In this document: positions 2,251 to 24,256 of the stretch, piece by piece
Position numbering within the stretch: position 1 is the first letter of the stretch
Layout of the letters: every line of letters begins with the position of its first letter
Source: Crossiella equi
GTDB taxonomy: Bacteria > Actinomycetota > Actinomycetes > Mycobacteriales > Pseudonocardiaceae
Direction: 5' to 3'
NCBI RefSeq assembly: GCF_017876755.1
Contig: NZ_JAGIOO010000001.1
Span: forward strand, 1,178,001-1,242,000
DNA: 64,000 nucleotides
Position numbers and translations under genes: made by a program
Notes under the pieces: generated by a model
What the model was told of the DNA's origin: nothing
Database searches by the model: none
What the model saw: the letters and a program-made list of their open reading frames with translations, nothing else

Positions 2251-3699
2251 TCACCACTCCCTCTTCCGCCAGGCGGCCAGCTCGGCATCCCGTGGGGCGG
2301 CCTGCACCTCGGAGGCCGGGTCCCCGAACACCATCGTCGAACGCGCGGTGTCCCAGCTCCGCCAGCCGGGGTCCCCCGTGGTGGCGAACCGCACCCAGGC
2401 GCCGTGCATCTCGTCGGCGATGCGCTGTGGCGCGTCCGGTCCGGCGAGCTTGACCCAGTCGGGCGAGGCGAGCCGGTCGAAGACGAACGGCAGCTCCATC
2501 GCGTGCGCGGCGCCCAGGTCGTCGACGGGGCTGCGCCACTGGAACTCGAACACGTGGGTCGTGGCACCGCGTTTGAGCCGGGCGTCGGCGATGCGGTGCA
2601 CGGGGACGCGGAGGATCCGGTCGATCATCATGATCGCCAGGAGGTCGCCCCGGCCCGCGTCCGGGTAGGCCTTCCGGTACGCCTTGCGCACCCGGCGGCC
2701 AGCGCCCATCCGCAGGCGCAGCAGGGCGGCCAGCAGCGGGCCGACCCGGTCGAAGGCGCCGTCGGCGGTGAAGAGCCGGTACTCCTCGGAAGTCCAGCCG
2801 ATCATCAGCGGCACCTGGTCCCCCGCTCCGGCGAGCGCGGCCTCCTGCGGGTCGCGGGGCACGGCCGCACCGCCGATGACGGGTTCGTACCCGCCGCCGA
2901 TGCCGGGCGCCCCGCCGCGCCGCGCCAGCTCGCGGTCGACCTCCAGCAGGCGTTCGGCGGGCACCGCGGCGAACGCGGCCCGGGTGGTGGGGATGCCGAG
3001 GTGCTTCGCCTGCCGCCGGGTCACCCTGGCCGCGGACTTCCGGCTCGCGCCGTGCGGCATGCCGCTCTGCGCGATCACGCGGTGGAACAGGTCCCCGGCG
3101 TGCGGGCTGACCAGCAGGTTGCCCACGACGACCCCGCCAGCGGACTCGCCGAAGATCGTCACCGCGCCGGGGTCGCCGCCGAACGCGGTGATCTCGGCCT
3201 GGACCCAGCGCAGCGCGGCGACGACGTCGGCGTAGCCGAGGTTCAGGGGCGCGTCGTCCAGGACCGAGAAGCCCTCGGCGCCGAGCCGGTAGTTCACGCT
3301 CACCAGCACAACGCCGTCGCGGGCGAAGGCGGACCCGTCATAGCCGTCGACGGCGTTGGAGCCGTGCCGGAGCGAGCCGCCGTGGATCCAGACCATGACC
3401 GGGCGTGCCACCGCCCCGGCCGGGGCCCACACGTTCACGTTGAGGTACTCCTCGCCGGGGGCGATGACGTTGGCGAGGTAGCGGGCCGAGGTCGGGCTCA
3501 TCGGGTTCTGCGGGGCGGTGGGGCCCATCCGCGTGGCATCCCGCGTGCCCGGCCACGGGGGAACGGGCGCGGGCTCGGCGAAGCGCCGGTCGCCGACGGG
3601 GGCCGCCGCGTAGAGGACTCCGAGGAAGCGGTCGACCCCCTCCTGGCGCACCCCGGCCAGGCCTCCGCTGGAGACGCGGACGGTGATGGGCTCGCTCAT
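2251..3699 (-). CDS. Type-B carboxylesterase / lipase (482 aa)
   Basis: A serine hydrolase of the carboxylesterase type-B family. Visible are the oxyanion-hole HGG (WIHGGSL), the nucleophile elbow FGESAGG, and the C-terminal VFEFQW and AMELPFVFD segments typical of the family. The ATG at 3699 is chosen over the longer frame because GGAGGA lies six bases upstream. No signal peptide is seen, so it is likely cytoplasmic. It is followed within 2 bp by an acyl-CoA ligase: the pair may cleave an ester and then activate the released acid. This is inference from linkage. A divergent TetR gene with paired boxes in the shared promoter is the likely regulator. Confidence 0.88.
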   Translation of the reverse strand: MSEPITVRVSSGGLAGVRQEGVDRFLGVLYAAAPVGDRRFAEPAPVPPWPGTRDATRMGPTAPQNPMSPTSARYLANVIAPGEEYLNVNVWAPAGAVARPVMVWIHGGSLRHGSNAVDGYDGSAFARDGVVLVSVNYRLGAEGFSVLDDAPLNLGYADVVAALRWVQAEITAFGGDPGAVTIFGESAGGVVVGNLLVSPHAGDLFHRVIAQSGMPHGASRKSAARVTRRQAKHLGIPTTRAAFAAVPAERLLEVDRELARRGGAPGIGGGYEPVIGGAAVPRDPQEAALAGAGDQVPLMIGWTSEEYRLFTADGAFDRVGPLLAALLRLRMGAGRRVRKAYRKAYPDAGRGDLLAIMMIDRILRVPVHRIADARLKRGATTHVFEFQWRSPVDDLGAAHAMELPFVFDRLASPDWVKLAGPDAPQRIADEMHGAWVRFATTGDPGWRSWDTARSTMVFGDPASEVQAAPRDAELAAWRKREW

Positions 3700-3745
3700 G
3701 TTCTCCTCCGTGCCTGACCAGCTCATCGGCTCCCCGACACTAACC

Positions 3746-3778
3746 TACAGCATGTATAGTTAGAAGATACAGCTTGTA
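3746..3778. promoter_or_regulatory. Twin palindromic boxes, probable TetR operator
   Basis: TACAGCATGTA (3746-3756) and TACAGCTTGTA (3768-3778) are two near-identical TACA-N3-TGTA palindromes with centres 22 bp apart, about two helical turns. They lie between the divergent esterase operon and the tetR gene. An outer CTAAC/GTTAG pair (3740-3744, 3759-3763) flanks the first box. Two dimers binding on the same DNA face would fit, as known for some TetR proteins. Confidence 0.7.
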
Positions 3779-3803
3779 AAGTCAGACCGAGAGGAGACGG
3801 GCC

Positions 3804-4403
3804 GTGGCGGAGCAGCGCACGCGGTTGTCCCGCGAAGCCCGCAACGCCCAGCTGCTCGACGTGGCCGAGGCCCTGTTCGCCGAGCACGGTTTCGAGGGCA
3901 CCTCGATGGAGGACATCGCCCGCGCGGCCGGGGTCACCAGGCCGGTGATCTACTCGCACTACCCGGGCAAGGACGAGGTCTTCCTGGCCTGCGTCCGCCG
4001 CGCCCGGGCCGAGCTCGAAGCCGGGATCCGCGAACCGGAGATCATGATCGAGGCCGGCGCCAGCGTCGAACGCGTGATGGAACGCGCGGGCGAGGTGCTG
4101 TTCTCCCTGCTGGAACGCGACCCGCGCCGGTGGATGGTGCTGTTCAACCCGAGCATCGCGCTGTCGAAGGCGCTCTCCGACCAGCTGCTCGCGATGCGCC
4201 GCCAGACCATCGCCCGGATCGCGCGGATGCTGCGCCACTACGCCGCGGACGAGGAGACCGGCAGCGCCTTCGCCCACGCCATCAGCGGCGTCGGCGAACA
4301 GCTCGGCCGCTGGTGGCTGGCCAACCCGGGCATCCCGAAAGCCCGCGTGATCGCCCTGTACCGCGATTTCGTCACCACGGGGCTGACCTCGCTGCGGGAC
4401 TGA
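3804..4403 (+). CDS. TetR-family transcriptional regulator
   Basis: A 199-residue regulator with a classic N-terminal TetR helix-turn-helix: ALFAEHGFEGTSMEDIARAAGVTRPVIYSHYPGKDEVF at about residues 18-55, followed by a helical ligand-binding domain. The GTG at 3804 has GAGGAG upstream. It is divergent from the esterase/acyl-CoA ligase operon, and the two TACA-N3-TGTA boxes between them suggest it represses both itself and that operon. The ligand may be a substrate or product of that pathway. The gene converges on a fossil region at its 3' side. Confidence 0.9.
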   Translation: MAEQRTRLSREARNAQLLDVAEALFAEHGFEGTSMEDIARAAGVTRPVIYSHYPGKDEVFLACVRRARAELEAGIREPEIMIEAGASVERVMERAGEVLFSLLERDPRRWMVLFNPSIALSKALSDQLLAMRRQTIARIARMLRHYAADEETGSAFAHAISGVGEQLGRWWLANPGIPKARVIALYRDFVTTGLTSLRD

Positions 4404-4404
4404 G

Positions 4405-4587
4405 GAGGCCGCCACGACCATGCGGGTGTGTTCCCGGCGCTCGTCCTCGTACTGGCGCAGCGCCGCGACCGGGTTGGCGGTGCGGGCCAGGGCGCGCGCG
4501 AGGACCACGCCGTCCTCGATCGCCATGGCCGAGCCCTGGCCCAGGCTGGTGAGCATCGGGGGCCACATCGCCCAGCAGCGTCACCAG
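4405..4587 (-). pseudogene. Remnant of an FAD-dependent monooxygenase (C-terminal part, frameshifted)
   Basis: The minus strand encodes a piece of a class A flavin monooxygenase: a LVTLLGD segment (the FAD ribityl-binding GD motif), then PMLTSLGQG, AIEDGVVLARAL, and a helix ending VVAAS. LVTLLGD and PMLTSLGQG lie in different frames. The intervening bases fit the canonical GDAAHP codons with two nucleotides missing. The N-terminal dinucleotide-binding domain is absent. The fragment is joined directly to polyketide-synthase sequence on its 5' side. Confidence 0.75.
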
Positions 4588-5041
4588 GCCGGTGCCATGC
4601 GCCTCCACGGCCTCCACTTCGGAGGGTCGCAGACCCGCGTCGGCCAGGGCGTGCCGGATGACCGCGGCCGCCTCGGTATGCACGAGGTCGAGCAGGCGGA
4701 CCCGGCGTTCGGGCTCGTTCAGGCCGGTGAGGTCCAGGCCACGCCAGGCCGGGGCGGCCTCGCCGACGAGGTCGCGCAGCAGCGCGGGCAGCTCGGACCC
4801 CAGGGCGCGCAGAGCCTTGCGGTCCAGGACGGCCGGGACGAGGTCGGCACGGGGTGCGTGCAGGGCGGTGTCGAGCATCCGCAGTGCCTCGGCCACCGGG
4901 GCCCCACGGGCCAGGCGGGCGGAGTCGGTCTCGCCCAGGCGGGCGGTCATGCCGCCGGTCGGTTCCCACGCGCCCCAGGCCAGCGACACCGCCGGGTACC
5001 CGGCCGCGCGCCTGCGCACGGCGAGGGCGATGAAGACGGAG
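4588..5041 (-). pseudogene. Remnant of a modular type I polyketide synthase (KR-ACP-KS pieces)
   Basis: On the minus strand three pieces follow in one open frame. First is the end of a ketoreductase domain (ALAVRRRAAGYPAVSLAWGAW, about 5040-4980, then a linker). Next is the first helix of an acyl carrier protein (RVRLLDLVHTEAAAV, ~4720-4665). Last is a ketosynthase piece with VEAHGTG around the catalytic His (4664-4588). The phosphopantetheine Ser region and most of the ketosynthase are missing. The ACP-KS junction sits at residues similar in both domains, suggesting an in-frame deletion through short homology. No intact polyketide synthase is in the window, so this is a scar of a lost cluster. 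Confidence 0.8.
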
Positions 5042-5635
5042 GTGCCGGCGAGGACCTCGGCGACCTGGGCGTGCGTGCGGTCGCGGCTGTCCCGCGGCTC
5101 CACGCCCTCGCTGCGCGGGTCGTTGCGCAGGATCTGCTTGAGCAGCGCGGACACCGAGGGCCGCTTGCGCGACATCCACGCGATGCTGGACACCTTCGCC
5201 TTCGGCCAGAACATCTCGGCGTCGATCTGGTTGGGCACCGGCGGCGGCCGGTTCAGGTTCGGGATGGCGCGGCTGAGCAGGTCCACCCCGCCGCGGGAGA
5301 TCGTCCACAGCGTCGGCGGCACACTCCACCCGGGATAGGGGTTGAGCTCGGGGCGGGTCAGGAACGTCATGAAGTGCCCCCGCACGAAGATGACCTTGCG
5401 GCCGCCCGGCACGGGATCGCGGCCGGACAGCGTCGGCACGGTGTTCTCGAACCAGTTGTACCGGAAACCCGGTGTGGGCGACCACCGGTAGGCCTCCACC
5501 CCGGCCACGACGAGCAGCTCCACGTGCTCGGTGAGCAAGCGGTTGCCACCTACGAACCCGGCGTAGATGACACGACCAGCCACCGCCCACCCCGCATCCG
5601 CAGGTAAGGCAACGCGAATGCCCTCTGCCACAGGG
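5042..5635 (-). other. Open reading frame of unknown origin fused in frame to the polyketide-synthase remnant
   Basis: The frame upstream of the polyketide-synthase scar stays open and has protein-like composition. It includes AEGIRVALPADAGW near the beginning, then VIYAGFVGGNRLLTEHVELLVVAG, WFENTVPTLSGRDPVPGGRK, and WPKAKVSSIAWMSRKRPSVSALLKQIL. I do not recognise the family. A GTG near 5635 could start it, but no convincing ribosome site is seen. It could be the 5' part of a real gene whose 3' part was replaced by the fossil, giving a chimeric protein of about 420 residues if translated through to 4372. The divergent LysR gene starts at 5713, leaving room for a promoter. Confidence 0.4.
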
Positions 5636-17119: not shown

Positions 17120-20104
17120 TCAGCCGGTGTCCAGGATGTACGCGCCCAGCCCGAGCTCCTCCGCCACCGCGATGGTCTTGTGCAGCATGGCGCTGGCCCG
17201 CGTGTACCACTCCGCGTCCTCGGGCTCGCCCAGGAACCCCGCCACCGCCGCCAGCGTCTCGCGCAGCGTGGCCTTGGCCTCGTCGTAACGGCTCACCGCG
17301 CGGTAGGTCTCGGTCAGCTCGGCGCTCAGGCTGGTCAGGCCCTCCCGCAGTGCCGCGTTGGCCTCCTCGAACCGGCCGCCCGCGTGCCGCGCCTCGGCGA
17401 TGTAGATCAGCGAGCTGGTGGTCATGCGGTGCAGCAGCGAGGTGACCAGGTCGTCCATGTGGCCCATGTCCCGGATGTGGTCCAGCGCCCGCTGCCGGTA
17501 GTCCCCCGCCTCGTCGTAGCGCCCCAGGCTGTAGTAGGCGTGGCTGAGCACCTCCAGCACACTGCCCTGGCTGTACAGCTCGCCCTGGGCCTCCAGCAGG
17601 GCCAGGGCGTCCAGCGCCGGGGGGATGGCCTCGGCGTGGCGGCCCAGACGGGTCAGGCTCGCCGCCACCCCCACCAGGGCACCGCCCTGGCCGGACTCGC
17701 AGCCGGTCTGGCGGAACAGGTCCAGGGCCTCCTGGGCGGTGGTCAGGGCCTGCTCGAACTTGCTCTCCAGCTGGTACACGCCCAGGCGCTGGCGCAGCGT
17801 GAACGCCCGGGCTGTGACCTCGCCCGCCTCGTCGTAGCAGTCCAGCGCCTCGGCCAAGCGGCCCTGGGCCTGGGTGAAGCGGCCCTGGTGGCAGTCCACG
17901 CGGGCCAGGCCGCGCAGGGCGTAGGCGCGCAGCACGCGGTCGCCGATGCGGTCGGCCGCGGCCAGCGCCACCGTGTTCACGTGCTCCAGGTCGCGCCAGT
18001 GCCCGGCCCAGTCCAGGTAGTACCGCAGTGACCAGGACAGGCGGCAGGCCGCGTCCTCCAGGCCGTGTGCCGCCGCCCGTTCGATCATGGTTACCAGCAC
18101 CGAGTGGTGGCTGGCGAACCACTGCAGCGCCTCCTGGTAGCCGCCGAACTCGCGCGGGGAGATGTCCGGGGCGGGCTCGGCCCGCGCCGGGTGGTCCGGG
18201 TACGGCGCCATCCGCAGCAGCGCCCGGGCCGCGCTGTGCACGTGCGCCCACAGCGTGCGGATGCGCGCCGCCCGGATCTCCTCGGCGGTGTCCTCCTCGG
18301 CCAGCCGCTCCCCCGCGTACGCGCGCAGCAGCTCGTGCCAGGTGTGCTGGCCCGGCTGGCGTTCCTGCACCAGGTGCGCCGCGGTCAGCTCGCGCAGCAG
18401 CGCGTTCGCCCGGGACGGCGCGATCCCGGCGATGCTGGCGGCGGTGCGGGTCTCGATGACCTGGCCCGGGTAGAGGGAGAGCAGGCGGAACAGGCGCGCG
18501 GCCTCGGGGGTGAGCGCGCGGTAGGACCAGGACAGGATCGAGCGCACGTCGCTGCCGCTGTCCGACCCGGTGAACGCGTCCAGGCCGCCCCGCGCCTCGG
18601 CCAGCTCCTGGGCCAGCGCGCCCAGGCTGAACCCGGGGTGCAGCGCGGCTCGGGCGGCGACCACGGCCAGTGCCAGGGGCAGGCGGGCGCAGGCTTGCAC
18701 GATCGCCGACACCGCCTCCGGTTCGGCCGCCACCCGTGCCGAGCCCAGGCGCAGTTCCAGGAAGTGCACGGCCTCGCCGACGGTGAGCAGGTCCAGCGGC
18801 ACGGTGTGCGCGCCGGTGCCCGCGACCAGCCCGGACAGGTCACCCCGACTGGTGATCATGACCAGGGACCGGGAGTTGCCGGGCAGCAGCGGCAGCACCT
18901 GCCGGGTGTCGCGGGCGTTGTCGAGCATGACCAGGCAACGCCGGTCGGAGAGCACACTGCGGTACAGCGCGGTGAGTGTGTCCAGCCGGTTGGGCAGCTG
19001 GCCGCTGGGCACCCCGAGGGCGTCCAGGAACGTCCACAGCGCGTCCGCGGGGTCGACCGCGGTGTCCCCGTCCTCGAACCCGCGCAGGTCCAGGTACAGC
19101 TGGCCGTCCGGGAACCGCGGGGCGAGCTGGTGCGCGACCCGCACCGCGAACGTGGTCTTGCCGACCCCGGGCATGCCGTGCACGACCACCACCCCGGGCG
19201 CCTCCGGACCGGGCCGCACGGTCCGCAGCAGCTCCCCCAGCAGCTGGGTGCGCCCGGTGAACACCCGCAGGTCCACGGGCAGCTGCGCGGGTACGAGCAT
19301 CGGTGTGGCGGCGACGGGCTCGGGCGGTGCGGCCGGTGGCGGCGGGGCGAGCAGCCCGGGGTCGCCGCGCAGGATGCGGCCGTGCAGCTCCCGCAACGCG
19401 GGCCCGGGGTCCACGCCCAGTGCCTCGCTGAGCTGGCGGCGCAGGGTCTCGTACCGGTTGAGCGCCTCGGCCTGCCGCCCGGCGCGGCACAGGGACAGCA
19501 TGAGCAGCTCGTGCAGGCGTTCGCGCAGCGGTTCGGCGGCGGCGGCCTCGGTGAGCTCGGGCAGGATGTCCGGGCTGAGCCCGAGGTCCAGCTCCAGCGC
19601 GGCCAGCTCCTCCAGCACCGCCACCCGCCGCTGCACCAGCCGCCCGCGCTCGGAGTCGGCGAACTCCGAGGACAGGTCCGCCAAGGGCTGGCCGTGCCAC
19701 TGGGCCAGGGCCTGGTGCAGGTGCTCGGCAGCGCCTTCCCGGTCCCCGGTGGCCTTGGCCGCCTCGGCGGCGCGCACGTGGTGGCGGAACCGGCCCAGGT
19801 CCACGGCGTCCTCGGGCACGCGCAGCGCGTACCCACCGCTGGTCGAGTGCACGATGTCCTCGCCGCCGACCTCGAGGATGCGGCGCAGGCGGTGCACGTA
19901 GGTGCGGATGGTGCCGCGCGCGGCCCTGGGCGCCTGGTAGCCCCACAGCGCCGAGCACAGCTCGTCGGTGGCGACCACGCGACCCCGGGCCAGCAGCAGG
20001 ATCGCGAGCGTGGTGCGCTGCTGCGGCGGACCGAGCGGCAGGTCGACCCCGTTGTGGAGGGCGCGGACGTGGCCCAGCACGGCGAACGTCAGTCCCTGCG
20101 TCAA
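17120..20104 (-). CDS. AfsR/SARP-type pathway regulator (SARP DNA-binding, BTAD, NB-ARC, TPR)
   Basis: A regulator of about 994 residues with the full AfsR layout. An OmpR-like winged helix (FAVLGHVRALHNGVDLPLGPPQQRTTLAILLLARGRVV) is followed by a BTAD helical domain to about residue 250. Next comes an NB-ARC ATPase with P-loop HGMPGVGKTTFAVRVA and LVMLDNARD as Walker B, then about 350 residues of TPR repeats. Such proteins activate antibiotic clusters, but no such cluster is intact here. The TTG at 20104 is preferred because CGGGAG precedes it and it matches the family start; a longer frame reaches 20170. The 172 bp between its 3' end and the PepSY gene hold no supported gene. Confidence 0.9.
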   Translation of the reverse strand: MTQGLTFAVLGHVRALHNGVDLPLGPPQQRTTLAILLLARGRVVATDELCSALWGYQAPRAARGTIRTYVHRLRRILEVGGEDIVHSTSGGYALRVPEDAVDLGRFRHHVRAAEAAKATGDREGAAEHLHQALAQWHGQPLADLSSEFADSERGRLVQRRVAVLEELAALELDLGLSPDILPELTEAAAAEPLRERLHELLMLSLCRAGRQAEALNRYETLRRQLSEALGVDPGPALRELHGRILRGDPGLLAPPPPAAPPEPVAATPMLVPAQLPVDLRVFTGRTQLLGELLRTVRPGPEAPGVVVVHGMPGVGKTTFAVRVAHQLAPRFPDGQLYLDLRGFEDGDTAVDPADALWTFLDALGVPSGQLPNRLDTLTALYRSVLSDRRCLVMLDNARDTRQVLPLLPGNSRSLVMITSRGDLSGLVAGTGAHTVPLDLLTVGEAVHFLELRLGSARVAAEPEAVSAIVQACARLPLALAVVAARAALHPGFSLGALAQELAEARGGLDAFTGSDSGSDVRSILSWSYRALTPEAARLFRLLSLYPGQVIETRTAASIAGIAPSRANALLRELTAAHLVQERQPGQHTWHELLRAYAGERLAEEDTAEEIRAARIRTLWAHVHSAARALLRMAPYPDHPARAEPAPDISPREFGGYQEALQWFASHHSVLVTMIERAAAHGLEDAACRLSWSLRYYLDWAGHWRDLEHVNTVALAAADRIGDRVLRAYALRGLARVDCHQGRFTQAQGRLAEALDCYDEAGEVTARAFTLRQRLGVYQLESKFEQALTTAQEALDLFRQTGCESGQGGALVGVAASLTRLGRHAEAIPPALDALALLEAQGELYSQGSVLEVLSHAYYSLGRYDEAGDYRQRALDHIRDMGHMDDLVTSLLHRMTTSSLIYIAEARHAGGRFEEANAALREGLTSLSAELTETYRAVSRYDEAKATLRETLAAVAGFLGEPEDAEWYTRASAMLHKTIAVAEELGLGAYILDTG

Positions 20105-20202
20105 TGCGGCTCCCGGGTCAGGGCGGGCCGCAATGATAAGTGCGGGGCGCACGACGCAGGTCCGCCCCACGCTCCGCGCTCACTCGACCGTGGCGCGCGG
20201 GA

Positions 20203-20739
20203 TCAGACCCCGCCGCCGCGCAGCAGCATGGCCTCGATGAACTCCGGCGCCTGCCGCGCGCCCATCCACTCCTCCAGCACCAGTTCCCACGCGGTCTCGG
20301 CGAGGCCGCAGAAGGTGGCGGCGAGCCAGGTGGCGGGCATGCCGGGCATGAAGTAGCCCTCCTGCTGCCCCTTGCCCACCAGCTCGACCACGTGGTTGAA
20401 CACCTGGTCGGCGCGTTCGGCCAGCTCGGGCTCGCCCAGGGAGTTGGCCTCGATGTAGACCACGCCCCACAGCTGGGCGAAGGCGATGTGGTCGCGCATG
20501 AGGATGCCGAAGGCCTCCTTGGCGGACATGTCCTCGCCGATCTCGGCCACGGCGCGCGCGCAGTCGTCGATGATCTTCTCCGCGGCGGCCCGGACGAGGG
20601 CCTGCCGGGTGGGGAAGAGCCTGGTCAGGGTGGCCCGGCTGACGCCAGCGCGGTCGGCGATCGCCTGCATGGAGGCCGAGCGGTCCTTGGCCAGGATCGA
20701 GCCCACCGCCGTCAGCACCTCGGCCGCATCCGTGCGCAC
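20203..20739 (-). CDS. TetR-family transcriptional regulator
   Basis: A 178-residue TetR regulator. The helix-turn-helix is at residues 10-50 (SILAKDRSASMQAIADRAGVSRATLTRLFPTRQALVRAA). The effector domain contains MRDHIAFAQLWGVVYIEAN. The GTG at 20739 matches the family start, and the N-terminal arm is short. It is divergent from the permuted amine oxidase; the 142-bp gap contains an AT-rich stretch with TCTGTCTCAGA at about 20814-20824. Control of the amine oxidase is a reasonable inference. Confidence 0.88.
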   Translation of the reverse strand: MRTDAAEVLTAVGSILAKDRSASMQAIADRAGVSRATLTRLFPTRQALVRAAAEKIIDDCARAVAEIGEDMSAKEAFGILMRDHIAFAQLWGVVYIEANSLGEPELAERADQVFNHVVELVGKGQQEGYFMPGMPATWLAATFCGLAETAWELVLEEWMGARQAPEFIEAMLLRGGGV

Positions 20740-20881
20740 TCAGCTCCCCTGCCTGCCTGGTCCGATATCCGGCCCAATCTACCCCTGCCTCAACTCTGCA
20801 TCCGATGAGCGGATTCTGTCTCAGAAGACATGATATGCTCTCTACAGAAGCTGAACCTCATGCAGAAGAGGGTGTATAGCC

Positions 20882-22171
20882 ATGGCTCCCGAGCTGAGCC
20901 GACGGCTTTTCCTGGGCGGCGCGCTGGCCGCCGCCGCACTGCCCACCGGCACCGCGCGTGCGAGCGCGATCCCGGACCCGGTGCGACACCTGCGGACCTC
21001 GTGGTCGGCGGACCCGTTCGCCCGGTGCTCGTACTCCTACCTCGCCCCCAGTCCACTGGGCACCGACGTGCGCCCGATGCTGGCCGCACCGGTGGGCCGC
21101 CTGCACTTCGCGGGCGAGGCCACCTCCGCCGAGGCCCCGGCCACCACGCACGGCGCGCTGGAGAGCGGCCGCCGCGCGGCGCGGGAGGTCCTGGCCGAGG
21201 GCGCCCGTTCAGTGGTCGTGGTCGGCTCGGGCTTCGCGGGCACGGCCTGCGCCCGCGCCCTGGCCGACCGGGGCGTCGCGGTGACGGTGCTGGAGGCCCG
21301 CGACCGGGTCGGCGGGCGCATCTGGACCGCGCGCCTGGGCGAGCTGCCCGCGGACCTGGGCGCGTCCTGGATCCACGGCCAGCAGCACAACCCGGTCACC
21401 GACCTGCTCAACGCGACGGGCGACCGCCGCCACCGCTTCGACCACGGCAACGCCGACGGCCGGGACCAGGCGGCGTTCGCGGAGCTGGCGCGGTACCAGG
21501 ACAAGCTCGACGGCCTGCCCCGCCCGACCGAGGTGCCGGTCGCCACGGTCTTCCCGGACCCGGCGCCCACGGCCCTGGCCTACGCGGCGAGCGTGGTCTA
21601 CAGCCAGGAGTACGGCGCGGACATCGAGGACCTGTCGGCCCACGCCGAGCAGGAGGGCCGCGCGGCCCGGGGTGGCGACCTGCTGCTCCCGGACGGCTAC
21701 GACCGCCTGCTGGCGCACCTGCGGGGCGAGGTCGGCATCCGCATCCGCGCGGTGGTCCAGTCGGTCGGCCAGCGCGCGGACGGCGTGCGCCTGACCCTGA
21801 CCGGCGGCGAGACGGTCGAGGCGGACCGCGTGGTGCTGACCGTCCCGATCGGCGTCCTGAAGGCGGGCACGATCAGCTTCGACCCGCCGCTGCCCCAGGC
21901 CAAGCGCCAGGCGATCAGCACGATCGGCGCGGGCCTGCTGGACAAGCTGTGGCTGGAGTTCCCGAAGCGCTTCTGGCCCGCCGACGCCGACGTCCTGGAC
22001 TGGTGCGACCCGCACTCCCCGGGCCGCTGGTCCTGGTGGGTCAACGGCTACAAGCTCTTCGGCCGCCCGATCCTGCTGGGCTTCAACTCCGGCCGCGAGG
22101 CCCGCCGCCTGGCCAACGCCCCGGACCGCGAGGTCGTGGCCAGCGCCCTGGATGCCCTGCGGCGCAGGTGA
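20882..22171 (+). CDS. Tat-exported flavin amine oxidase with circularly permuted halves
   Basis: This 429-residue flavoprotein has all parts of a flavin monoamine oxidase but in swapped order. After a Tat signal (SRRLFLGGAL, Arg7-Arg8) come about 70 residues that normally end the family: SWSADPFARCSYSYLAP, VGRLHFAGEAT and PATTHGALESGRRAA. Only then comes the FAD-binding start (VVVVGSGFAG near residue 111, LEARDRVGGRIWT), the substrate domain, and VLTVPIGVLKAGTISFDPPLP. The protein stops at VASALDALRR, exactly where the canonical protein would continue into the segment now at the N-terminus. Each part occurs once, so this is a permutation, not a duplication. The start ATG follows a GAGGGTGTATAGCC leader. 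A TetR gene is divergent. Confidence 0.85.
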   Translation: MAPELSRRLFLGGALAAAALPTGTARASAIPDPVRHLRTSWSADPFARCSYSYLAPSPLGTDVRPMLAAPVGRLHFAGEATSAEAPATTHGALESGRRAAREVLAEGARSVVVVGSGFAGTACARALADRGVAVTVLEARDRVGGRIWTARLGELPADLGASWIHGQQHNPVTDLLNATGDRRHRFDHGNADGRDQAAFAELARYQDKLDGLPRPTEVPVATVFPDPAPTALAYAASVVYSQEYGADIEDLSAHAEQEGRAARGGDLLLPDGYDRLLAHLRGEVGIRIRAVVQSVGQRADGVRLTLTGGETVEADRVVLTVPIGVLKAGTISFDPPLPQAKRQAISTIGAGLLDKLWLEFPKRFWPADADVLDWCDPHSPGRWSWWVNGYKLFGRPILLGFNSGREARRLANAPDREVVASALDALRRR

Positions 22172-22198
22172 TTCCGCGCTCCCGGTAGGCTGCGCGCC

Positions 22199-22789
22199 AT
22201 GCCCGACCGCACCATCTTCGTCATCGGCGCCCCGGGCAGCGGCAAGTCGACGCTGACCGAAGCCCTGGCCCGCCGCCTCGGCTACGCCAGCTTCTACAGC
22301 GGCGAGGCCTTCCGGCAGGCCGCACAGTCCTATCCGGACACTCGCACGCGGGAGCGGATCGTGCGCCGGATGGCCGTCAACCGCCCGATGCCGATCTCGG
22401 TGTACTGCGAGGTGATCGCGCACAGCGTGCACCGCGGCGAACCGGGCCTGGTGGTGGACGGCTTCCCGCGCTCGAGGGTGCAGTGCCTGGCCATCCCCCG
22501 GATCCTGGCGGCACTGCACCGAGCGGCCACCTCGGTCGTCGGCATCGCCCTGCACGCCCCCGAACCCACACTCGTCACGCGGGTGCTGGGCCGGGCGGCG
22601 CGCAGGGACGATGACGATGAGACGACCCTGCGCCGCCGCCTGCGCCTGCACCACAGCGAACAGGCCACCATCGAGGCGGAGTTCGGGAAGCGGTGGCAGC
22701 TGCACCACATCAACTCCGCCCAGCCCTTCGCCGAGGTGGTGGGCGAGACGATCGAGGCGATCGAGTCGGCGCCGGTCAGGACATCCTGA
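22199..22789 (+). CDS. Adenylate-kinase-like nucleoside monophosphate kinase
   Basis: A 196-residue P-loop kinase. The Walker A GAPGSGKSTLTEALARRLG is at residues 10-28. YSGEAFR corresponds to the NMP-binding start and LVVDGFPRS to the adenylate-kinase DGFPR motif. The lid is short (VLGRAARRDDDDETTLRRRL), with the conserved Arg pairs. The sequence is diverged from housekeeping Adk. It ends 14 bp inside the convergent phosphoribosyltransferase gene, which links it physically to the nucleotide-handling triad; a functional link is inference. Confidence 0.78.
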   Translation: MPDRTIFVIGAPGSGKSTLTEALARRLGYASFYSGEAFRQAAQSYPDTRTRERIVRRMAVNRPMPISVYCEVIAHSVHRGEPGLVVDGFPRSRVQCLAIPRILAALHRAATSVVGIALHAPEPTLVTRVLGRAARRDDDDETTLRRRLRLHHSEQATIEAEFGKRWQLHHINSAQPFAEVVGETIEAIESAPVRTS

Positions 22790-23648
22790 AACCCTCCCCG
22801 AACGCACCCTGTTCCCTGGCCAGCGCGTCGAGCCGCTCAGGCCGTTCCTCCCGTGCCAGTCCCGGCGAGCCGTGCAGACCGTGCACCTCGGCCTCGACCC
22901 AGCACAGCCGCGCGTACTTGGCCGGGCTCATCGCCTGGCTGCCGAAGTCCCAGCCCACCGCGGACACCGCCTGGCCGTCGAACTGCGCCCTGGCCAGCTC
23001 CCGGTACCGCGGTTCGGTGATGGTCTCCGGGTGCAGGAAAGACAGGTCGAACCCGTTGTGCCCCAACCCGAAAGCGGCCAGCCCGAACAGCAACGTGCAC
23101 CGGATCCCGTTGGCCTGGCAGTACGCTTCGATCCGCCGGGCCCCGGTCGTGGCACCAGCACACGAGAAGACGTACAGCTCCTCCACCCGGTGCACACTCC
23201 GGTAGGCCTCCAGGGCGGCCACCACGGTCGCGCCGGAGGCGACGGTGTCCCCGATGAGCAGTGTGGAGCCGGGCGCGTCGAAGCGGGCGTAGGAGACGTC
23301 GACCTTGGCGTCGTCGGCCAGCACTTTCAGCCGCGAGGTGGCGACCAGGTTGACTGGCAAGTTCCGCCGCAGCTCCAGTGCCACGGCGACGGGCAGCTGG
23401 TAGACGAGTCCCTTGCTCAGCAGGAGCAGCTCGACCGTGTCGTCCTTGTTGATCTCGTCGGCGACGTGGCCGACGAAATGCCTGCTGATCTCCAGACAGG
23501 TTTCGCGGAACGGCAGTCCGGTGAGGTTGCGGTCGAAGAGCAGAGTGCGCAATGGCTCGTTGTCCACGATGTGCAGCGATCCACAACCGCTCTCGTCCCC
23601 GATGTTGCGGACCGTGCTGCCACCCACTTGGCTGATCAACGAACTCAC
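22776..23648 (-). CDS. Phosphoribosyltransferase-fold protein
   Basis: A 290-residue protein with a type I phosphoribosyltransferase core. STLLIGDTVASGATVVAALEAY near residues 128-150 is the PRPP-binding loop (acidic residues before TxxSGxT), and LLLLSKGLVYQLPVAVALE matches the pyrophosphate-loop region. About 100 additional C-terminal residues (HPETITEPRYRELARAQFDGQ, MSPAKYARLCWVEAEVHG) are not in housekeeping enzymes. The GTG at 23648 overlaps the stop of the upstream gene (GTGA), so the two are co-translated. It is the last gene of a three-gene operon with a deoxyribosyltransferase-like protein. The substrate base is unknown. Confidence 0.75.
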   Translation of the reverse strand: MSSLISQVGGSTVRNIGDESGCGSLHIVDNEPLRTLLFDRNLTGLPFRETCLEISRHFVGHVADEINKDDTVELLLLSKGLVYQLPVAVALELRRNLPVNLVATSRLKVLADDAKVDVSYARFDAPGSTLLIGDTVASGATVVAALEAYRSVHRVEELYVFSCAGATTGARRIEAYCQANGIRCTLLFGLAAFGLGHNGFDLSFLHPETITEPRYRELARAQFDGQAVSAVGWDFGSQAMSPAKYARLCWVEAEVHGLHGSPGLAREERPERLDALAREQGAFGEGFRMS

Positions 23649-24256
23649 CTGTGCGAGGCGCAGGCGGCAACCGGACGATCGAGATTCAGTCGTTTGATGG
23701 CGTCCAACATGGGTGCGTCGCCGGGCAGGACGTTCTTCTGGTACTCGTCAATCGCGTCGGTGAGCCAGGGCGGGATCGACCCTGGTCCTGATCGCTTCTC
23801 CTGCGCGAGCTCGCCCAGGCGGCGCCCGGCTTCGACGAAGTCGTCCACCACCGCCACCGCGAGTGAGGCGACATGCGGGTGCACGTAGTCCTTGACCACC
23901 GCGCCCCGGTACTGGAGCTCGTCGGACCGGTATTTCGAGTTGCGCGGCGCCACCACGATGACAGGCACCGCCAAGGTTGCCGCCGCGGCCATTTCCACAC
24001 CGATGCCAAGCCCCCGGCGTTCCCGGGCGTCGACCACCACCGCCGTGGCCACCTGCACCTGGTAGAGATCCCGTCCGAACTGCCCCAGTGTGTTGCCCGG
24101 ATCGGTGATCGGGTCGTCCGGGTTCAGGAAGACCACGTCGTGCGGTTGTGCGCCGAGTGCCACCTGGTCGCGTTCGGCGTCGGTCCAGCATTGCTTCTTC
24201 GCGTCGCCCGCCCCTTTGGCTATGGAACCGGAGCAGTAGACGGACAGCGAGGACAT
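23645..24256 (-). CDS. Nucleoside 2-deoxyribosyltransferase-like fold protein
   Basis: A 203-residue alpha/beta protein starting SLSVYCSGSIAKG. VATAVVVDARERRGLGIGVEMAAAATLAVPVIVVAP resembles the strand-helix segment of nucleoside 2-deoxyribosyltransferases and related Rossmann-like N-glycosidases, where the Glu in the G-x-E helix is catalytic (here GVEMAAA). I cannot confirm catalysis. The ATG at 24256 has AAGGAG eight bases upstream. It sits between an unrecognised upstream protein (15-bp gap) and the phosphoribosyltransferase (4-bp overlap), so all three should be made together. Confidence 0.6.
   Translation of the reverse strand: MSSLSVYCSGSIAKGAGDAKKQCWTDAERDQVALGAQPHDVVFLNPDDPITDPGNTLGQFGRDLYQVQVATAVVVDARERRGLGIGVEMAAAATLAVPVIVVAPRNSKYRSDELQYRGAVVKDYVHPHVASLAVAVVDDFVEAGRRLGELAQEKRSGPGSIPPWLTDAIDEYQKNVLPGDAPMLDAIKRLNLDRPVAACASHR

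Follow-up and report, generated by a model that had tools for sequence, protein, structure and literature searches.

Does the gene analysed here, which lies in a 64,000-nucleotide stretch of Crossiella equi DNA (NCBI RefSeq assembly GCF_017876755.1, contig NZ_JAGIOO010000001.1, positions 1,178,001 to 1,242,000 of the forward strand; this whole stretch is hereafter the window), encode a flavin amine oxidase whose parts stand in rotated order? The initial annotation, made from the sequence, proposed a natural circular permutation of the amine oxidase fold, each half being present once, with a twin-arginine translocation (Tat) signal added at the new start. Our analysis makes it highly probable that the window protein is a Tat-exported amine oxidase dependent on flavin adenine dinucleotide (FAD), similar to LSD proteins and polyamine oxidases and naturally permuted in the linker that precedes the closing segment of the FAD domain; its export and activity are predictions. 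Feature coordinates are given in Table 1.

The rotation is visible in the motifs of the protein. The sequences SWSADPFARCSYSYLAP, LHFAGEAT and PATTHGALESG all lie within residues 40-96, downstream of MAPELSRRLFLGG...ARASA, and the GSGFAG motif at residues 115-120 comes after these closing motifs, with the 429-residue chain terminating in VASALDALRRR. The protein matches PF01593 with E=1.5e-73 and 249.1 bits against a curated cut-off of 19.8, and this match is split over three stretches. The canonical linear order, in which the FAD start comes first and the GEAT segment last, is not found, so the protein is a homologous permuted form rather than a canonical member of PF01593. A phmmer search of PDB sequences places LSD2 at the top (E 6.3e-44), followed by spermine oxidase and LSD1, and the LSD2 alignment pairs query residues 109-187, 260-376 and 27-104 with residues 337-416, 519-636 and 697-774, respectively, of a 776-residue chain.

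A profile built from 28 canonical relatives was searched against 28 permuted proteins. On the window protein, profile positions 355-433 fall at residues 28-106, positions 6-104 at residues 109-205 and positions 164-351 at residues 238-428, the three swapped-order pieces scoring 86, 112 and 184 bits; positions 105-163 are unmatched, and no position is matched twice. The identical swap occurs in 28 of 28 permuted rows, and the reciprocal search with a permuted profile returns the reverse order in the 10 canonical rows listed, of 28. These alignments put the rotated order far beyond chance. At the gene's own locus (L001), each of the three segments has one tblastn match in the coding frame, with no second C-terminal copy; a weak antisense match of the N-terminal piece (31%) was taken as spurious. 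A repeat search of 20200-22200 yields no long direct repeat that would mark a recent duplication, the longest being 33 nucleotides at 76%.

The chain is broken in the short linker that joins the final helix of the substrate domain (...ALDALRR) to the closing segment of the FAD domain, which holds the conserved Trp (..IPDPVRHLRTSWSADPF). A loop of a few residues now connects the former C-terminal helix to the first Rossmann strand. An AlphaFold2 model of the window protein (predicted local distance difference test score, pLDDT, 87.9; predicted template modelling score, pTM, 0.87; residues 1-26 under pLDDT 50) contains a helix at residues 89-105 followed by a strand at 110-114. In sequential alignment, model residues 107-429 superpose on LSD1 residues 277-734, and a canonical control model spans LSD1 residues 274-827. 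The best fold matches are LSD2 and LSD1, with maize PAO and mouse acetylpolyamine oxidase also among them. The model thus predicts with confidence that residues 107-429 adopt the canonical fold. Sequence and model together bear out three claims of the initial annotation, namely the circular permutation, the amine-oxidase identity and the Tat-type signal.

Monoamine oxidases, LSD1 and polyamine oxidases rank among the best-studied flavoenzymes, and LSD2 (KDM1B) and LSD1 (KDM1A) share with the window protein the FAD start, the lysine and the closing WSxDP...GEAT...GA..SG segment. The window protein differs from both in its rotated order and Tat signal. LSD proteins carry additional nuclear domains, which are not in the 429-residue window chain. 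When a profile of the new junction is run against PDB chains, spermine oxidase scores highest (113 bits, in two pieces), and its closing motif is similar (STTHGALLSGQREAARL); the alignments of the two top chains, spermine oxidase and LSD2, begin with the FAD start and finish with the GEAT segment, opposite to the window protein. Canonical bacterial oxidases with Tat-like starts (loci L037, L032 and L034) show 36% identity over 327 aligned columns in a profile comparison. They retain the order N-terminal, middle, closing part (N-M-C) and carry the signal ahead of the first Rossmann strand, whereas in the window protein it precedes the closing segment. The same junction profile finds no solved structure of the rotated form among PDB sequences, and a literature search of titles and abstract starts, with subscription papers mostly outside, lists no natural permuted flavin amine oxidase among its matches. 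The protein is a rotated form of a well-known enzyme fold, often accompanied by a Tat-like signal, that is undescribed in the literature searched. An event of like kind in a different fold is the natural circular permutation of glutathione synthetase mentioned in PMC2876114.

How widespread is the rotated order? A genome-contig scan gave 143 relatives, and among the best 80, which were kept, 27 are permuted and 53 canonical; the permuted ones come from Streptomyces, an Amycolatopsis metagenome-assembled genome (MAG), Nocardiopsis, Microbacteriaceae (including Cryobacterium) and an Actinomycetota MAG, among others. A profile was built on the new junction of permuted proteins and run on genome samples; the counts of permuted genomes are lower bounds because only part of the candidates in each genome was scored. 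The class sample has junction-profile matches in 28 of 394 genomes, including the window's own, all permuted on inspection and two truncated. Permuted genes occur in 8 of 296 genomes of the phylum sample (four shared with the class sample), in one of five in the genus sample (the window's own genome), in 3 of 299 in the Pseudomonas phylum, to which the canonical locus L034 belongs, and in 8 of 244 and 6 of 244 in two orders of that phylum, genomes found before included. The total comes to 70 complete distinct permuted open reading frames (ORFs), plus two truncated, versus 87 complete canonical ones. The initial annotation had looked to homologues with the same order for support, and these 70 supply it; a normal C-terminal GEAT segment plus an extra copy, which it had named as the contrary outcome, is absent, the closing segment standing at both ends in none of the classified ORFs. 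The permuted form is present in both Actinomycetota and the Pseudomonas phylum, with the break region in common.

Several candidates for the rotated order did not survive inspection. A Rhizobium plasmid match (H10), apparently collinear over residues 31-428, proves canonical once its segments are mapped, as does the best plasmid match (H1); these two were the plasmid records mapped, with 225 others outside. Junction-profile matches in 5 of 13 phylum-sample genomes (G042, G123, G139, G174 and G547) and in 11 of 19 genomes of a Pseudomonas-phylum order sample are partial and their genes are not permuted, and a fourth Pseudomonas-phylum match, in genome G719, is the canonical L034 gene and was not counted as permuted. 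Searches of the phyla of a Planctomycetota locus (L087) and a Deinococcota locus (L039), run at E 1e-26 without a positive control, give matches in none of 199 and none of 111 genomes, respectively. The order closing part, N-terminal part, middle (C-N-M) occurs in none of loci L089-L117, taken as best matches only from the 60 relatives, and among phage records one partially matches the FAD start.

The window protein carries an SRRxFL-type motif, a hydrophobic stretch and an AxA site (SRRLFLGGALAAAALPTGTARASA), as judged by eye and by a crude rule that asks for RR followed by a run of hydrophobic residues. It has no lipobox Cys and so does not qualify as a Tat lipoprotein; its nearest relative, L009, has a lipobox. 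By the crude rule, 63 of the 72 permuted ORFs start in a Tat-like manner and 42 have a lipobox, versus 26 and 4, respectively, of 88 canonical ORFs. One ORF counted as Tat-like, L160, probably starts downstream of its RR and is probably a false positive. Since canonical relatives also bear Tat-like signals, the signal may have preceded the rotation. In Cryobacterium breve ERMR7:08 (L029, upstream of 4028), codons corresponding to a sister species' signal lie apparently out of frame with the enzyme, through a frameshift or a sequencing error.

Residue conservation was counted over 70 permuted and 87 canonical rows. W41, G78 and E79 are invariant in the permuted rows, as are G115, G117 and G120 of GxGxxG and G144-R146 (GGR); E138 is kept in 69 of the 70. 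At the position of K355, whose counterpart in LSD2 we take to be K661, the flavin-N5 lysine, Lys stands in 57 permuted rows (the window protein included) versus 86 of the 87 canonical rows. A Lys-less subgroup in family f51 has Leu, Val, Thr or Ala there (L123, L125, L126, L127, L129, L132, L133, L135, L137, L138 and L145) and still retains the Trp as well as the Gly-Glu pair of GEAT; in L136 and L141 (family f44) Arg takes the place of the lysine. Cys49 adjoins the position at which MAO carries its covalent-flavin Cys. At Cys49, 62 of the permuted rows have Gly and 8 have Cys, and so we claim no covalent flavin. The substrate is likely to be an amine or polyamine, since the nearest sequences are LSD proteins and spermine oxidase.

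In the mechanism that we propose, residues 30-106 would pack back at their usual place and complete the FAD site, FAD would be taken up in the cytoplasm, and Tat would then export the folded holoenzyme. Outside the membrane, the enzyme would be free in Crossiella equi and probably lipid-anchored in over half of its relatives. There, it would oxidize amines, perhaps of polyamine type, with O2 to an imine or aldehyde and H2O2, with K355 near flavin N5, and the chemistry would probably resemble that of canonical relatives. The divergent TetR regulator may control the oxidase gene.

Several observations, the tree results given below among them, weigh against this reading or one of its parts. Nine of the 72 permuted ORFs have no signal by the crude rule (L013 and L014, both from Nocardiopsis, L120, L124, L159 and L180-L183), so export is no constant companion of the permutation. 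A Tat-type signal does stand at the new start, as the initial annotation held, but it was not necessarily added there, in view of these nine ORFs and of the Tat-like canonical relatives. Judged by their sequences, permutation and export appear often to coincide, and neither appears to need the other. Thirteen of the 70 complete permuted rows lack the N5 lysine, 11 with other residues and 2 with Arg, and hence not every permuted form need be an oxidase. On this account the window protein might instead be a non-catalytic exported FAD-binding protein, such as a redox sensor or scaffold, which we regard as quite improbable given that K355 is kept in the window protein and 56 others and that the Trp and the Gly-Glu pair never vary. 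That residues 30-106 occupy the equivalent site is a point that we infer, and apart from lineage-specific gene sets and, at a few loci, a TetR gene, no neighbouring gene is common to the 27 permuted loci. We reject an error of assembly or annotation, and likewise gene decay, as having next to no probability, because many independent genomes share the rotated order; the open frame and the conserved motifs also speak against it.

Whether the rotation matters to the enzyme is a closer question. It may be real but neutral, having arisen long ago by accident at a linker that tolerates breaks and leaving folding, export and catalysis unchanged, and we judge this about evenly balanced between true and false; it is compatible with the permuted-oxidase reading, which asserts no advantage. 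Neutrality agrees with the Tat-like starts of 26 of 88 canonical relatives, with the related TetR gene that also flanks canonical Pseudomonas locus L034 and with motif residues that are mostly common to permuted and canonical rows, but the persistence of the order and break region over deep divergence in two phyla is something that it allows rather than predicts. A further, unlikely reading is that the rotation was selected for remaking the biogenesis of an exported flavoenzyme, through an early cofactor site and an anchor at a domain boundary, perhaps in more than one event at the same linker. With GEAT and GxGxxG both within the first 120 residues, the cofactor site could start forming ahead of substrate-domain synthesis. 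The initial annotation, too, raised the possibility that the permutation alters the placement of the FAD loops as the protein folds ahead of export. If the rotation was so selected, the Tat signal or lipid anchor would no longer sit at the first Rossmann strand but at the domain boundary, and the active site would be turned differently towards the membrane. The rotated form is in any case a natural experiment on the connections that the fold needs, on cofactor loading before Tat export and on possible anchor sites, and annotation by Pfam-domain presence alone would miss it.

The rotated order is inherited; how often it arose is less clear. Circular permutations usually arise when a gene is duplicated in tandem and the outer parts are then lost, and this, starting from a canonical gene, is the likely route here; no duplication intermediate is seen among the classified ORFs. 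The simplest history would be one origin, after which the export signal was lost or altered. Trees were computed after removal of ten long-branch canonical rows and thinning of rows over an identity limit (68%, later 60%). The best trees require 3 and 4 order changes, and the starred branches of the three-change tree alone demand at least 2; in 0 of 200 bootstrap trees, for either tree, do the permuted rows form one side of a branch, and a single clade is rejected in a 56-row set with 37 permuted rows (approximately unbiased, AU, test, p 0.031). These results favour independent permutations at one structurally tolerant linker, at least one each in Actinomycetota and the Pseudomonas phylum. Yet a single clade is not rejected in a 57-row set enriched for Pseudomonas-phylum rows (AU p 0.264) or when L158 is left out (AU p 0.289, 2 changes), the tree backbone is poorly resolved, and the common break region would fit a single event too, so that we consider several origins possible but the less probable history.

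Table 1. Features of the permuted oxidase gene and adjoining genes (window coordinates; position 1 is the first letter of the window).
Feature	Coordinates	Strand	Remarks
Circularly permuted flavin amine oxidase	20882..22171	+	Complete coding sequence including stop, ATG at 20882, 429 aa
Twin-arginine signal MAPELSRRLFLGGALAAAALPTGTARASA, residues 1-29	20882..20968	+	AxA-type end, without lipobox Cys; judged by eye
Moved segment, residues 30-106	20969..21199	+	C-terminal closing part in canonical flavin amine oxidases; profile and LSD2 alignment
FAGEAT motif, residues 76-81	21107..21124	+	Usual site close to the C-terminus
N-terminal FAD-binding (Rossmann) part of canonical order, residues 107-205	21200..21496	+	Canonical profile
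GxGxxG motif GSGFAG, residues 115-120	21224..21241	+	Conserved glycines
Middle part, residues 238-428	21593..22165	+	Canonical profile; chain stops where the moved segment would come next
K355, counterpart of the flavin-N5 lysine	21944..21946	+	LSD2 alignment
TetR-family regulator, divergent	20203..20739	-	178 aa; PF00440; adjoins the oxidase gene
Large SARP/AfsR-type regulator	17120-20170	-	BTAD, NB-ARC, TPR (Pfam); adjoins the TetR gene

Relatives of the divergent TetR gene lie near permuted loci L009 (56%), L016 (48%) and L165 (30%) and adjoin the canonical gene of L034 (38%), a likeness between that locus and the window; the remaining neighbours of the 27 permuted loci differ between lineages. 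No promoter- or terminator-like patterns are found in 20700-22300. On the minus strand of the window, 22776-24256 holds two adjacent ORFs of 287 and 203 residues with no Pfam match at E 0.001. At Nocardiopsis locus L013, the signal-less permuted gene and an upstream ORF overlap by 4 bases (2634-3968 and 3965-5218), which suggests co-translation, and the upstream ORF resembles an FAD enzyme by eye (VIVIGGGIGG).

The Crossiella equi genome also encodes canonical amine oxidases, including one with a fused cyclic-nucleotide (cNMP)-binding domain. In this fusion (L002:1006-2928; G000:C1 near 95580-96869), the binding domain is C-terminal (PF00027, E 7.7e-9). Matches in same-family relatives (L090-L094) have open frames of 644-690 residues, and the fusion may for this reason be conserved.
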